From Opitutales bacterium (GTDB lineage: Bacteria; Verrucomicrobiota; Verrucomicrobiia; Opitutales; T3Sed10-336), in contig JAIUMY010000029.1 in NCBI GenBank assembly GCA_022565335.1, positions 1 to 33,724 on the forward strand: DNA of 33,724 nt, given 5' to 3'. The position numbers and the translations under genes were made by a program. Positions 12,708 to 33,724 of this stretch are shown piece by piece (within the stretch, counting starts at the first letter, position 1; every line of letters starts with the position of its first letter). The notes under the pieces were generated by a model. The model saw only the letters and a program-made list of their open reading frames with translations. It did not search any database and was not told where the DNA came from.

Positions 12708-13802
12708 TTAAAGTTCGACTGTTTTCAGGGTATTGCGATCCCAGGGTTGTTGCTGGCATTCCTCCGCAATTTCGGCAAAGGCGTCCATTTCGGCTTTGGA
12801 AAAAAGCAGGCCGCCATGCTTTTCGGTCAGGGCGGCGGCGTCCGCCTCGATCTGCCCGGGAAGAAGACAGTTTTTGTTATCTCCCTGTAGAATGTCCTCA
12901 AGGACTACCTTGAGGTTCGCTGCCTGGGTCCGCCCCTGGGCAAAATCCCCGCTGCCCATAGCCTCAGGATGAATGACCTGGAAGAAAAACGCCGGGGTAT
13001 GCTTCTCATCATCGTCGGCCCAGCGACTGCGCAGGGTCGGCTTGGACCCGCCGATTAACCCACCGACCAGTTCGTTGATAAGGGAAAGTCCATAGCCCTT
13101 GTGCGCCCCAAAGGGCAAAAGAGCCACCGCCTTTTCGGGATCCTGTGTCGGGTTTCCATCCGCATCGACCGCCGCATTGGGGGGAAGTTGTTTGCCTTCC
13201 CGGCGAAATTGTTGCACCCGTCCCATGGCCACCACCGAGGTCGCCCAGTCGATGACAATAGGAAAGCCCACCGCCTCGGTCGTAGGAAATCCCCAACTGT
13301 GCGGATTGGTCCCGAGAGTAGGCACCTTGCCCATAAAGGGCACCACCTCGGTCAACGCCGCAGTGCAGTTGGTATAGGCAAAATAGCCTTTTTTCGCAGC
13401 CTCCATCACATACCCGCCACCCCAAAGATAATGAAAGGCATTGTCCACACTGACCGTCCCCACGCCGTATTCATCGGCCAACCGAATGGCCTCGTCAATG
13501 GCCTTGTAGGCGGTGGATTGGCCGAGCTTTTTATTGGCATTCCACACCTTCGCGGCTGGAAACCGACCGGATTTGTCCTCAATCTCCGCTCCCGGAACAC
13601 AGCCCCCGGAACCGCTGCCAAAAAGGTGGTCCAAGTGCAAAGCCTTGATGGCGTTGTGGGTACGAATGCCGTGGCGGGCCGCGGACGCACAAAAACGAGC
13701 CGCATCAGCAGACTCCTCGGGCGTGAAGCCACGCTTCTCGTAGGCCGCTTCGACGAGAGCATTGTGTAAACCTTCGGGAACAATGGTGTAAGTTTCAGGC
13801 AT
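12708..13802 (-). CDS. Ldh-family (malate/L-lactate/ureidoglycolate dehydrogenase-type) oxidoreductase
   Basis: ARFCASAARHGIRTHNAIKALHLDHL, VDNAFHYLWGGGYVMEAAKKGYFAYTNCTA, GTNPHSWGFP, LPFGAHKGYGLSLINELVGGLIGG. Confidence 0.88.
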   Translation of the reverse strand: MPETYTIVPEGLHNALVEAAYEKRGFTPEESADAARFCASAARHGIRTHNAIKALHLDHLFGSGSGGCVPGAEIEDKSGRFPAAKVWNANKKLGQSTAYKAIDEAIRLADEYGVGTVSVDNAFHYLWGGGYVMEAAKKGYFAYTNCTAALTEVVPFMGKVPTLGTNPHSWGFPTTEAVGFPIVIDWATSVVAMGRVQQFRREGKQLPPNAAVDADGNPTQDPEKAVALLPFGAHKGYGLSLINELVGGLIGGSKPTLRSRWADDDEKHTPAFFFQVIHPEAMGSGDFAQGRTQAANLKVVLEDILQGDNKNCLLPGQIEADAAALTEKHGGLLFSKAEMDAFAEIAEECQQQPWDRNTLKTVEL

Positions 13803-13923
13803 AAGAAAACCTTTCTAAAGCGCTCCTCTGAAAAAAACAAACTAAAACCACCCTCAACCCTAAAAGGAGGGTTTTCGCGGTTAAAGAACTTGTGTGTGAG
13901 ACTAAGGCTTGGCCGAGGCCTTA

Positions 13924-14051
13924 GGAGTGTTGCGCGCAGGGGCGCAAGGCCCCCGTTCGCTTTTTGCCCAAGCGGGGACCTCGTTGTCCCTGCGCGGAGT
14001 GCTTCAAGCCAGGGGCGTAAAGCACGCCCCACCCCCTGCGCGAAACACTCC
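13924..14051. repeat. 128-bp structured intergenic element: long inverted repeat enclosing two related GGGGC hairpins
   Basis: Arms GGAGTGTTGCGCGCAGGGG (13924-13942) and CCCCTGCGCGAAACACTCC (14033-14051) complement at 18/19 positions. Internal GGGGC-GCAAG-GCCCC (13939-13953) and GGGGCGT-AAAGC-ACGCCCC (14012-14030). Confidence 0.8.
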
Positions 14052-14144
14052 GACCCCGGCGAGTCTCTTATTCGCTTGGACTCTATGGCAAATATTCGGC
14101 AAGGCATGCGGTCTCAGGTGAAAGCAGCGATTCGGCCACTGAGT

Positions 14145-17100
14145 TTACCCTTTCCCCTTCATCCCTTCGGCCTCTTCCTTTGCCATATCCTCGCGAATTT
14201 TCGCCGCGCGGATTAGCCCGTAGGCACTGGAACGCCCGAAGACCTTTTGGGAAAGCCCGTCCATCAGCCAATAAACCACGGGAATGACAAATAGACTAAA
14301 AACCGTGGCAATGGAGAGCCCTCCCACGACCACCAGACCCAACGGATTTCGAGTTTCGGCCCCCGGTCCGGTGGCCAGAGCAATGGGCATAATGCCAAAC
14401 ACCGTGGAGATCGCGGTCATCAAAATCGGCCGAAAACGTAAACTGGCCCCCTCGAAGGCAGCATCCCAGGCCTTTCGCCCCTGCACTTGTAGTTGATTGG
14501 CAAACTCCACTATCAAAATCCCGTTTTTGGCTACCAGCCCAATCAACATAATCAGACCAAAACGGGAGAAGAGATTATCGGTCATCGGATACCCGAAGAG
14601 ATTGCTTAGGTAGAGGACTAAAAGTCCCCCGGCCAATGCCAAGGCTACCCCGGTAAAAATCGTGAGAGGGTGAATAAAAGACTCAAACTGCGCCGACAAA
14701 AGAAGGAAGCAAAAGAGCAAAGCCAGGATGAAAAGAAAAATCGTCGCGCCCTCACTTTCTACAAACTCCCGGGTGTTGCCATCGTAGAGCGAATTGACCC
14801 CCGGCGGCAGTTCCGCACGAACCCCTTCCAAAAATGCCACCCCATCACCTATGGTATAGCCAGGCGCCATGTTGGCCGTAATTACCACCGAACGAAAACG
14901 ATTGTAACGGGGGTACTTATCGGGAACTACGGTCTCTTCCCAGTTGACCAGATTGACCAACTGAATCATCTCCCCATGCGTGGACCGAACATAGACCCGA
15001 CCCAGATCCGCTGGGGTAACCCGTTCGTCATCCTCGATTTGGACGAAGACCTCATATTCTTCTTGGTTCTTTTTAAAAGTGGTAACCTCTCGCCCTCCCA
15101 TCAGCGTTTCCAGGGTGCGGGCGATTTCATCGACCCGGACCCCCAGGTCAGCCGCTTTGCTCCGGTCAATGTTTAGATTGAGTTGAGGTTTGTTGGGAAT
15201 GGGGTCAATACGCGGACTTTGAAACATTCCACTTTGGGCCATTTGGCCCATAAGCCCAAACCCCAAGCCCACCAGTTGGTCAAAATCCGAACCTTGTAAA
15301 ACAAACTGAATGTCTTCCCCAAAAGAAAGAGGCCGAATCGGAATATTAAAAGACAATCCTCCGGTCACCTCCTGCGCGTAACGGCCCTGAATTTCCCCAC
15401 TGATTTCCCGGGTCGACCTTTCGCGCTCATCCCAGTCTTCAAGGCCGACAAACATCAATCCCTGATTAGCCTGGCCGGGGACCCCGAAACCAACATTGGT
15501 GATACTGAAAACCCTTTCCACCCCCTCGGTTTCCATGACAATATTCTCCATCGTCTCGACGTAAGTCCGGGTGTATTGTGGAGTCGAACCGAGCGGAGCG
15601 AAGAAGAAGGAGATAAAGACCCCTCGGTCCTCCTCGGGCACCAATTCGCTTTGCAACTGCGAATATGACCAGGGGCCGGCTAGCACGGCAAAGAGCAAGG
15701 CGACAATAATCACTACCGGCCAAGCATTCATCGCTTTGCGCAACGCCCACGAATAGCCATTGTTAAGGCCCGAGAAAAAAGGCTCTGTCGTGCGGTAAAG
15801 CCACGCTCCTGCCTTGCCTTCTTCCGCCGAACGACTGACTTTCAGGAACCGTGAACAGAGCATGGGCGTAAGGGTCAGCGCGATAAAACTGGAAAACGCC
15901 ACCGCGATGGCCAAGGTAATCCCGAATTCAAAAAACAAGCGTCCGGTGGACCCCTCTTGGAAAGCCACCGGCAAGAACACGGCAATCAAGCTTAAGGTCG
16001 TGGCGATAATCGCAAAAGCCACCTGCCGACTTCCTTTGAGTCCGGCCTGGATCGGATCCTCCCCTTCCTCCATCCGGCGGTAAATATTCTCCAGCATGAC
16101 AATGGCGTCATCAATCACCAAGCCCACCGCCAGCACCAATGCCAGCAAGGTCAGGATGTTGATCGAAAACCCAAACAATTGCATCACCGCAAAAGTCCCA
16201 ATCAATGACACCGGCACGGAAATCAGCGGAATCAGCGTCGCCCGAATGGTCCGCAAAAAGAAGAAAATCACCAAAATCACCAACCCGAAGGCAAAGAGAA
16301 GGGTTTTATAAACCTCGTTGATGGATTCCTGCACAAAGACACTGGCGTCGTAGGCCAATACCAACTCCACCCCATCCGGCATCGCCCCCTGCACCTCCGG
16401 AAGGCGATCACGAACCCCTTGGGCCACTTCGAGCAAATTGGACTGGGATTGCCGTACCACGCCCAAGCCGACCGTCGGGTTTCCCCGGAAGAAGGTCAGG
16501 GTCCGATAGTCCTCGGTTCCGACCTCCACCCGGGCAACTTCCCCCAGCAAGATCTGCCGACCGTCCCGTTCAGCGATGACCAAATCCTCAAACTCCTCCA
16601 CCTCATTCACATCCCCCATCACCCGCACTGAAAACTCCCTCGCTGCGGATTCAATCCGCCCCCCCGGGATCTCCACATTTTGCTCCCGCAAGGCCTGTTC
16701 CACATCCGCTGGGGTGAGGTCGTAGGCCGCCAATTGAGTCGCACTCAACCACACTCTCATCGCAAAACGGCGCTCCCCTCCAATGATCACATTGGCCACG
16801 CCGGATACATTTTGCAGGGTTCTTTTGCCAAAGCGATCGGCAAAATCGGTCAGTTCCAAGCGGTTGTAACGGTCGGAATTGACCGAAATCCACATAATCG
16901 GGGTATTATCGGATTCGGTCTTCTCCACCGAAGGCTCCCGCGCTTCATCAGGCAGGCTGTCCCGGGCCCGTCCTACCCGGTCGCGAACATCATTGGCGGC
17001 GTTATCAACGTTTCGTCCCAATTCAAATTCAATAGTAATTTGTGAAACTTCCTCCCGACTCTCCGAACTCAGCATACGAATCCCATCGATCGTCGAAATT

Positions 17101-17309
17101 TGTTCTTCCAAGACGTCGGTGATCCGGGATTCCACCACCTCCGCATCGGCCCCGGGATAAACCGTGTTAACGGATACGATCGGCGGATCGGTATCAGGGT
17201 ATTCGCGTACCGGGAGATTTTGAAAGGAAAGAATCCCGATTAAAACAATGAGAATACAGATGACCGTACAGACAACGGGGCGACGGATGGAGACTTCGGA
17301 AATAACCAT
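14145..17309 (-). CDS. Efflux RND transporter permease (AcrB/HAE1 family)
   Basis: 1054 aa; SIRRPVVCTVICILIVLIGILSFQNLPVREYPDTDPPIVSVNTVYPGADAEVVESRITDVLE; GLVIDDAIVMLENIYRRME (TM4 Asp pair). Confidence 0.95.
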   Translation of the reverse strand: MVISEVSIRRPVVCTVICILIVLIGILSFQNLPVREYPDTDPPIVSVNTVYPGADAEVVESRITDVLEEQISTIDGIRMLSSESREEVSQITIEFELGRNVDNAANDVRDRVGRARDSLPDEAREPSVEKTESDNTPIMWISVNSDRYNRLELTDFADRFGKRTLQNVSGVANVIIGGERRFAMRVWLSATQLAAYDLTPADVEQALREQNVEIPGGRIESAAREFSVRVMGDVNEVEEFEDLVIAERDGRQILLGEVARVEVGTEDYRTLTFFRGNPTVGLGVVRQSQSNLLEVAQGVRDRLPEVQGAMPDGVELVLAYDASVFVQESINEVYKTLLFAFGLVILVIFFFLRTIRATLIPLISVPVSLIGTFAVMQLFGFSINILTLLALVLAVGLVIDDAIVMLENIYRRMEEGEDPIQAGLKGSRQVAFAIIATTLSLIAVFLPVAFQEGSTGRLFFEFGITLAIAVAFSSFIALTLTPMLCSRFLKVSRSAEEGKAGAWLYRTTEPFFSGLNNGYSWALRKAMNAWPVVIIVALLFAVLAGPWSYSQLQSELVPEEDRGVFISFFFAPLGSTPQYTRTYVETMENIVMETEGVERVFSITNVGFGVPGQANQGLMFVGLEDWDERERSTREISGEIQGRYAQEVTGGLSFNIPIRPLSFGEDIQFVLQGSDFDQLVGLGFGLMGQMAQSGMFQSPRIDPIPNKPQLNLNIDRSKAADLGVRVDEIARTLETLMGGREVTTFKKNQEEYEVFVQIEDDERVTPADLGRVYVRSTHGEMIQLVNLVNWEETVVPDKYPRYNRFRSVVITANMAPGYTIGDGVAFLEGVRAELPPGVNSLYDGNTREFVESEGATIFLFILALLFCFLLLSAQFESFIHPLTIFTGVALALAGGLLVLYLSNLFGYPMTDNLFSRFGLIMLIGLVAKNGILIVEFANQLQVQGRKAWDAAFEGASLRFRPILMTAISTVFGIMPIALATGPGAETRNPLGLVVVGGLSIATVFSLFVIPVVYWLMDGLSQKVFGRSSAYGLIRAAKIREDMAKEEAEGMKGKG

Positions 17310-23497: not shown

Positions 23498-24496
23498 TTA
23501 CGGAAAACGATCCTTATTCGATTTTAGTTTAAACTTATTTTGCCCTAACGCTAAATCAGCAAAGATCGTTTTTTCATGACTGTTTCCAGTTACCTCAGAC
23601 CCTGGTCGCCACTTTTCTACAAAAGAACAACTTCCCACCACGATTCCCCGCCCCAAAGCGGCCCAAATCCGGCCCCATTTTGGCCCTCCTGAACCTTCCG
23701 TGCCAGGTCTTTGGGCCAGTATCCTCGCCATCTCATCCTTTGCCCCATCGCCTCCAGTCTGCCCCAGCAAAAGCAACCGGTATTCTCGCAAAACTTCCCT
23801 CCCCCACGCATTCCCTCGCAACCCCCGCAAAATCTCCACCAGTCTCGCCTGCGGCTCACCTTCTAGCTCTCCTTCCCCATAGCCACTGACCGCATAGTCA
23901 CGCGGATCCTCCACCAACCCCGCCCGCACCGGATTCAAATCAATATACGCCGCCATCACCAACAACGCCGTGCCGCTCCCCTGCACCAGCACACTCCTGA
24001 AACGATCACTCCACAAGGGTCCATAGCGATCGTGGTTCGCATTATACCAAATACTCACCTGTTGCTTGTAGATCTTCACAAACGCCGACAAATCATGCAT
24101 CCGTGACCGCAGGCTCGCCCGCATCTTCTCCGCCTCCTCACCCCCGTCCTTGAGGGTTCGCTCCACCTGTTCCGGCGTATTCGGCGCATACTTGCGTGCC
24201 CGCTCACTCTTGCGCAGCACCCCATCCTCCCCATGCAACATCCGGTAGCGCCGCAACAATTCCCCATCGTCAAGCTTGATCCCGCTCCCATCCGGCACTT
24301 CCACTAAAACATGGAAATGATTGCCCATCAGGCAATAGGTCAGGATCTTCACCCCACAAAACCCCGCTACCTTGAACAGCATCCGCCGCAGCACCTCTTT
24401 CTCTTCATCCGAGAAAAAGATCTCCCCATTCACCGTCCGCGACATCACATGATACAACGCCCGCTGACCTTTTACCTTTAATCGTTCCTTACGCAT
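23498..24496 (-). CDS. REP-associated / IS200-like Y1 (HUH) transposase (RAYT), complete
   Basis: ALYHVMSRTVNGEIFF, YCLMGNHFHVLVEVP (HUH), AAYIDLNPVRAGLVEDPRDYAVSGYGE; homologous to both window-end ORFs. Confidence 0.92.
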   Translation of the reverse strand: MRKERLKVKGQRALYHVMSRTVNGEIFFSDEEKEVLRRMLFKVAGFCGVKILTYCLMGNHFHVLVEVPDGSGIKLDDGELLRRYRMLHGEDGVLRKSERARKYAPNTPEQVERTLKDGGEEAEKMRASLRSRMHDLSAFVKIYKQQVSIWYNANHDRYGPLWSDRFRSVLVQGSGTALLVMAAYIDLNPVRAGLVEDPRDYAVSGYGEGELEGEPQARLVEILRGLRGNAWGREVLREYRLLLLGQTGGDGAKDEMARILAQRPGTEGSGGPKWGRIWAALGRGIVVGSCSFVEKWRPGSEVTGNSHEKTIFADLALGQNKFKLKSNKDRFP

Positions 24497-33130: not shown

Positions 33131-33724
33131 TTATGTGCTGGGTTTATTGAAACGAAAGGAATTCGGCGTAAACAATCCGGCCAGCGGGGTCTTAAAAGTA
33201 AGACTGGGGCGCCGAACTTTGCCCAAAAGGCAATTCTTGGCTTTATTCAGGAGTCCCCCTACGAAAGACTCTGACCCAAACACTTGAGCTCTGGTAATGG
33301 CGGCGAAAATCTTGGCCCGCACACGGCGCTCATTATCGCTTACGGTCTGCTCGCTCAGCAATCGGGTGATCTCTTCCTGCGCTTCCTGGTCATCCAGATG
33401 CCCCTTGCCTTCCCGCGGCATTCGCCCCTGTCCCAGTACCAGCAACCGGTAAAAGCGCAACACATCGCTGCCCGTATCTTTATCAATCGCATCCACAATA
33501 TACCCCAGATCGACCATTGGCTCTCCCGCCATCACCGACTCCCCGTAACCACTGTAGGCATATTTGCCCGGATCATCCACCAATCCCGCCCGAACCGGAT
33601 TCAAATCGATGTAGGCTGCCACCACCTTCAAGGCATTGGGCCGCCCCTCGACCAGGAGACTCTTTAACTTCTCACTCGTCAGAGGACCATAGCGCCGGTA
33701 CTCGCTGTTATACCAGATACTCAC
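33131..33724 (-). CDS. REP-associated / IS200-like Y1 (HUH) transposase (RAYT), N-terminus cut by the window edge
   Basis: SIWYNSEYRRYGPLTSEKLKSLLVEGRPNALKVVAAYIDLNPVRAGLVDDPGKYAYSGYGE; homologous to the ORFs at 1-585 and 23498-24496. Confidence 0.88.
   Translation of the reverse strand: MSIWYNSEYRRYGPLTSEKLKSLLVEGRPNALKVVAAYIDLNPVRAGLVDDPGKYAYSGYGESVMAGEPMVDLGYIVDAIDKDTGSDVLRFYRLLVLGQGRMPREGKGHLDDQEAQEEITRLLSEQTVSDNERRVRAKIFAAITRAQVFGSESFVGGLLNKAKNCLLGKVRRPSLTFKTPLAGLFTPNSFRFNKPST

Follow-up and report, generated by a model that had tools for sequence, protein, structure and literature searches.

An intergenic hairpin feature in the window (i.e., the whole 33,724-nt stretch of Opitutales DNA analysed here) belongs to a dispersed, mobile repeat family, copies of which flank a gene for a Y1 protein whose catalytic motifs are split between two tandem domains. 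We consider it likely that these repeats are REP/BIME-like elements and that the fused Y1 protein, using one shared active site, is their mobiliser.

A nested hairpin repeat confined to one genus

The feature lies between an Ldh_2 (malate/L-lactate dehydrogenase) gene downstream (12708-13802) and an RND (AcrB-type) permease gene upstream (14145-17309), both on the minus strand, where a preliminary description made from the letters alone had placed it; coordinates below are for the plus strand unless stated. The nested anatomy given in that description was also confirmed. A 19-nt inverted repeat, complementary at 18 of 19 positions, has arms at 13924-13942 and 14033-14051 that are separated by 90 nt; two related units start at 13924 and 13996, each with a GGGGC-type hairpin (13938-13954 and 14012-14030); and CCCTGCGCG is repeated in direct orientation at 13988-13996 and 14034-14042. 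The REP-like hairpin of unit 1, CAGGGGCGCAAGGCCCCCG (13937-13955), was found by pattern match and folds alone as DNA, and folding identified GGGGCGTAAAGCACGCCCC (14012-14030) as the hairpin of the second related unit. A REP-like hairpin unit in the opposite orientation, CAGGGACAACGAGGTCCCCG on the minus strand, occupies 13973-13992, as seen in the sequence and in aligned copies. The hairpin feature at 13924-14051 is more than a product of chance, because on neither strand did any of 200 dinucleotide shuffles match its fold, and because the genome has more than 60 related copies elsewhere. The z-scores for the two strands were -5.2 and -4.8 when 13924-14051 was folded as DNA, and -4.8 and -6.0 when 13900-14075 was folded as RNA (where the transcribed strand gave -6.0). 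Secondarily, the window copy may form a putative strong mRNA hairpin in the RND-Ldh transcript.

The preliminary description ended at the inner arms. That core stands, but judged by homology to dispersed copies and by the rule for their ends it is the centre of a larger copy of about 13890-14075, with edges at C13889|T13890 and C14075|T14076. This copy includes an outer inverted repeat, GAGACT (13898-13903) and AGTCTC (14062-14067), that is also present in full copies, and a conserved left-terminal motif, GTGAGACTAAGG (13896-13907), that emerged from aligning the left ends of copies from two genomes. Reading 40 stretches gave the structure of the full unit, which is about 300 nt long, starts with T(T/A)(G/A)(T/G)GTGAGACTA and ends with ..CCAGCTCCGCTGGnGGCnnnnC. 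Within it, the outer GAGACT...AGTCTC repeat encloses an inner repeat, GGAGTGTTGCGCGCAGGG...GCGCGGAACACTCC; several CAGGGRC-nnRAR-GYCCCCG hairpins lie between these, some in one orientation and some in the other, and a right-terminal hairpin, CCAGC-TCC-GCTGG, follows. In the window copy, both this terminal hairpin and the spacer that separates hairpin units one and two are missing, and we thus read it as a shortened derivative of the ~300-nt unit. Its right edge was read from the sequence; full copies run on into the hairpin that is absent here.

Far from being a single copy, the element is one of many in the genome, as the preliminary description had supposed. Copy counts rest on sequence searches of the genome: BLAST with 13900-14075 found more than 60 related places (a lower bound), many of them clustered and in both orientations, and the core hairpin pattern occurred 132 times in this genome (G000), with 68 forward and 64 reverse matches that often alternate within one cluster. 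The pattern occurred 140 times in the only other member of the genus (the sister species, G001) and was found in none of 34 other relatives, while a reversed control pattern had no match in any genome searched. BLAST with the full consensus likewise found matches in G000 and G001 only, and the family is therefore confined to one genus. Across the collected hairpins, the upper stem pair was A-T in 57, G-C in 39 and another combination in 6, as expected if the hairpin is maintained. RNAalifold covariation on 12 close copies was near zero because these copies are too similar. The preliminary reading of the element as a BIME/REP composite thus holds for its multi-copy, extragenic, alternating REP-like hairpins and fails for the foot: neither GTAG/GTRG nor CGTC was found at the hairpins, where the stem is preceded on its 5' side by GCGCGCA, GCGCTCA or CCGCGCA.

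Insertion between C and T

The insertion point fell within a coding ORF at only 5 of 22 sites (17 of 22 being outside coding ORFs) versus 76% of random nearby points (p = 2e-7), with coding calls based on a dicodon score whose training set was 24 long ORFs of the window. Where both neighbouring genes were called, 8 pairs were convergent, 8 codirectional and 1 divergent. This site preference is the usual REP pattern.

Comparison with the sister species revealed empty sites. The flanks of 20 repeat copies were searched for and those of 14 were found in G001, where three sites (L094, L086 and L084) were cleanly empty. A fourth, L080, had no repeat there but carried a 43-nt difference, and some other sites, including that of the window copy, were filled in both species. 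The three empty junctions read ATTTTAC|TAATTTCC, GGGGAGTC|TTGAGCCC and AACGAGC|TTATTTCC, respectively, and their filled forms read C|T(element)C|T. At L084, CTTG borders the filled site at its left end and CTTA at its right, and the empty site has CTTA; this fits an element T...C put between C and T but not a 4-bp duplication. Furthermore, the predicted CT was in place at left ends in 37 of 43 cases and, scored at two adjacent offsets, at right ends in 24 of 29. At the level of sequence comparison, these junctions show that the repeat has inserted since the split of the two species, precisely between C and T. Cleavage at C|T is also what purified TnpAREP from E. coli and from S. maltophilia carries out (PMC8266576). 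Empty and filled sites that can be compared between two species are scarce for REPs.

Two other accounts of the element were weighed against a REP/BIME-like repeat. If it were a MITE that depends on a conventional DDE transposase, terminal inverted repeats and a 4-bp target duplication would be expected, and the GAGACT/AGTCTC repeat near the ends and the CTTG- or CTAA-like tetranucleotides at both ends of some copies could be read in this way. However, the inverted repeats are not terminal, the differing tetranucleotides at L084 fit C|T cutting and not a 4-bp duplication (which was dropped on the strength of that junction), and the hairpins flank a Y1 gene, all of which makes a MITE very unlikely. 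The alternative named in the preliminary description, a conserved structured RNA or attenuator specific to the RND-Ldh operon, would account for how strongly the transcribed strand folds (z -6.0) and for the position between codirectional genes. Yet an Rfam scan of the feature gave no match, more than 100 hairpin copies lie beside unrelated genes, and sites at other loci are empty in the sister species. A structured RNA is thus refuted as the sole explanation, and we regard it as extremely improbable.

A tandem Y1 protein flanked by the repeats

The preliminary description had linked the repeat to RAYT genes, and a link of this kind was found, but to a different gene from those it named. The window carries three Y1 (RAYT-like) genes, all on the minus strand (1-~546, 23498-24496 and 33131-33724), of which the two end ones are partial at the contig ends. 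The genome has 32 Y1_Tnp matches, about 27 of them in the same family as the window's copies. None of the 11 members of this family with enough flank to be tested had repeats common to both flanks, although one, L050 (on contig C52), showed a single weak repeat match downstream; the window-type genes were thus dismissed as partners. Members of this ~27-copy family encode proteins of about 330-380 aa, have no conserved flanks, and resemble subclass 2.1/2.3 of Quentin 2018 (PMC6006769), which are without REPs. Several contigs, including this one at both ends, break inside such genes. The window also encodes a SET-domain protein (PF00856; 32442-32975, plus strand), here in a bacterial genome.

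Screening 30 Y1 loci with a repeat profile revealed arrays on both sides at one locus only, the Y1 gene at C48:679-1479 (i.e., on contig C48), where the arrays lie directly on both sides. This gene is present in one copy each in G000 and G001, and no match of comparable score was found in the other 51 relatives. The G001 orthologue, its only close relative among 52 other genomes (98% identity), also has repeat arrays on both sides, and a near-identical gene occurs in an Opitutales MAG (JAFIGF010000190.1). Because repeat arrays flank the gene on both sides, we infer that the C48 Y1 protein is the partner enzyme of the repeat. The flanking arrays belong to a repeat sub-type that lacks the GTGAGACTA/CCAGC outer ends, which makes this protein no more than a candidate mobiliser of the full unit.

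The C48 protein gave two partial Y1 matches and scored below the cut-offs of both NF033573 (54.6 bits, cut-off 55) and NF047646 (15.3, cut-off 80). Aligned with the IS200-type transposase 2f4f, its residues 144-231 correspond to chain positions 5-92 and its residues 62-115 to positions 70-126. AlphaFold modelling of the tandem protein (two input sequences) was uninformative (pLDDT 43). A search of the class and phylum found 25 tandem Y1 proteins with readable frames in many Verrucomicrobiota lineages, a set that includes the near-duplicates L034/L117, L118/L149 and L119/L120. These proteins are about 260 aa long with D-H-x-H in domain 2. Motifs were located with a Y1 profile derived from single-domain homologues: all 25 proteins had the Tyr and Gln (Tyr-xxx-Gln) in domain 1, where none had the HxH pair, and all 25 had HxH in domain 2, where none had the tyrosine. 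A second domain-2 tyrosine, Y245, is near-invariant and could be catalytic instead of Tyr110; it is Arg in L162, however, which makes Tyr110 the better candidate. In a tree of both domains together with single-domain relatives, domain 1 and domain 2 each formed one clade with the same 7/17 split, and one ancient fusion would thus be the simplest history of the family.

Repeats also accompany the tandem genes beyond this genus. Repeats common to both flanks (at least 50 bits) were found at 18 of the 23 tandem loci with enough flank, with none at that threshold at the other 5, versus 5 of 21 ordinary single-domain Y1 loci, where they were mostly inverted, and 0 of 11 window-type loci. The repeats beside tandem genes are lineage-specific and often GC-rich hairpins with ACAAG-like loops, and relatives of the C48 protein at 28-49% identity lie among hairpin repeats of their own. 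In the genome that hosts the 49%-identical protein (G634), a specific pattern found 19 copies of the cognate hairpin over many contigs. General dispersal across tandem-gene hosts was not seen with a generic hairpin-loop pattern, and because G287 and G400 have one hairpin type beside the gene only, dispersal is not a general property. A scan of viral contigs gave matches mainly over domain 2, none of which was treated as tandem. In other genomes of the class, the single-domain Y1 loci L123, L129, L130, L132 and L139 carry classic REP-like repeats on both sides, mostly inverted.

Proposed mechanism and related systems

Under the mechanism we propose, the repeat would be a non-autonomous mobile element of the single-strand type, and the C48 protein a fused pair of Y1 domains that forms a pseudo-dimer with one composite active site, in which domain 2 would supply the HUH motif and domain 1 the catalytic Tyr and Gln. 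Work by Ronning in 2005 reportedly found that the active sites of IS608 TnpA are shared between subunits. The complementary motif loss in the tandem proteins is what a fused dimer keeping one shared site would look like. Once single-stranded, the CAGGGRC-nnRAR-GYCCCCG hairpins would be recognised by the fused protein, which would cleave on both sides at C|T and rejoin the ends, and so spread the repeats. The window copy would then be an old insertion that later lost internal and terminal pieces.

A REP/BIME-like repeat might instead be moved by another Y1 protein (one of the ~27 window-type genes or an IS200-like gene on contig C100), with the C48 gene beside the arrays by chance or as a relic. 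The number of Y1-like matches in the genome and the ends of the full mobile unit, which are not seen in the C48 arrays, are consistent with this. The flanks of the window-type genes, the restriction of both-side arrays to C48, the conservation of the C48 arrangement in the sister species and the hairpins around its distant relatives all argue against it, and we consider it unlikely. It is also quite unlikely that the tandem proteins have lost catalysis and been domesticated to bind DNA, with the repeats left as relics. Taken singly, each domain is indeed degenerate; however, the losses in the two domains complement each other exactly in all 25 proteins, which come from many lineages and have the Tyr, the Gln and both His residues without exception. 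This suggests selection for one composite site, and insertions have occurred since the two species diverged.

REP/BIME (REPIN) elements and their RAYT (TnpAREP) genes form "REPtrons" (Nunvar 2010, PMC2817692; Bertels & Rainey 2011, PMC3116915; Quentin 2018, PMC6006769). The system described here resembles them in its short, high-copy, extragenic hairpins of alternating orientation, its junctions that fit C|T and its single-copy Y1 gene with hairpins on both flanks, but it differs in lacking a GTAG/GTRG foot, in having nested units of up to ~300 nt with precise ends, and in its tandem Y1 protein with split catalytic motifs and Y-xxx-Q instead of Y-xxx-NP. In class 2 TnpAY1 RAYT proteins, HUH and Y-xxx-NP lie in one core, whereas here HUH and Y-xxx-Q are on different domains. 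IS608 TnpA is a dimer (Quentin 2018, PMC6006769). The C48 system shares the Y-xxx-Q and DHxH motifs and the hairpins flanking the gene with IS200/IS605 TnpA (IS608, ISDra2). Unlike IS200/IS605, it joins two domains into a single chain that has retained just one of the two shared sites, and within the genus the gene is single copy per genome with repeats dispersed without it; the IS200/IS605 traits of a single-core TnpA with DHxH and Y-xxx-Q, and of a gene between mobile ends in several copies per genome, are not found. Class 3 TnpAY1 (Solibacter and others), the hairpins of which reach about 600 copies in one genome, has a Y-motif ending in Q and a gene flanked by atypical hairpins, but its proteins are single-core (~178 aa) with NHVH and a CnGA foot (Quentin 2018, PMC6006769), unlike the ~260-aa tandem form. 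The CGTC-tagged REPs (Di Nocera 2013, PMC3733652) are also palindromic repeats without GTAG; they have no associated transposase gene, whereas the present repeats have one and lack the CGTC foot.

The repeat system is thus BIME/REP by anatomy, yet it fails two defining RAYT-REP features (a GTRG/CGTC foot and a single-core HUH-Y enzyme). A term search of Quentin 2018 (PMC6006769), which was restricted to proteins carrying the two motifs in a single core, found no mention of tandem proteins, and no description of a tandem, split-site Y1 transposase was found in the open-access literature (subscription papers lay outside the search). Because of this anatomy, the two failed features and the lack of a described tandem enzyme, we take the system as a variant within the BIME/REP kind. 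On balance, we favour the view that the tandem proteins are a distinct class of REP-associated transposase with fused, complementarily degenerate Y1 domains, one shared site per chain and lineage-specific hairpin repeats, here driving nested BIME-like elements of about 300 nt with insertion at C|T. IS200-type TnpA acts as a dimer in which two active sites are shared, and E. coli TnpAREP works as a monomer. If our reading is true, a natural fusion with just one shared site left would be an intermediate between these two forms, and the tandem protein would allow the cutting and spread of REP-like sequences to be studied in a single chain.

Finally, other sequences recur with the repeat copies. 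Another hairpin module, GCCCCGCTAAGGCGGGATTTCGCTGTGGCTCAACAGA, lies inside copies L062, L063, L066, L081 and L085, as if one family had landed in another. The palindrome-containing AAGCGCATATGCGTCAACCTAAGCACTT recurs beside copies L072, L077, L087 and L097 and at the G001 counterpart of the window site (L216), and is possibly another small repeat family. A TGACCTCCGACC-like sequence follows many copies (right flanks of L069, L082, L102, L108 and L112) and is itself reiterated intergenically.
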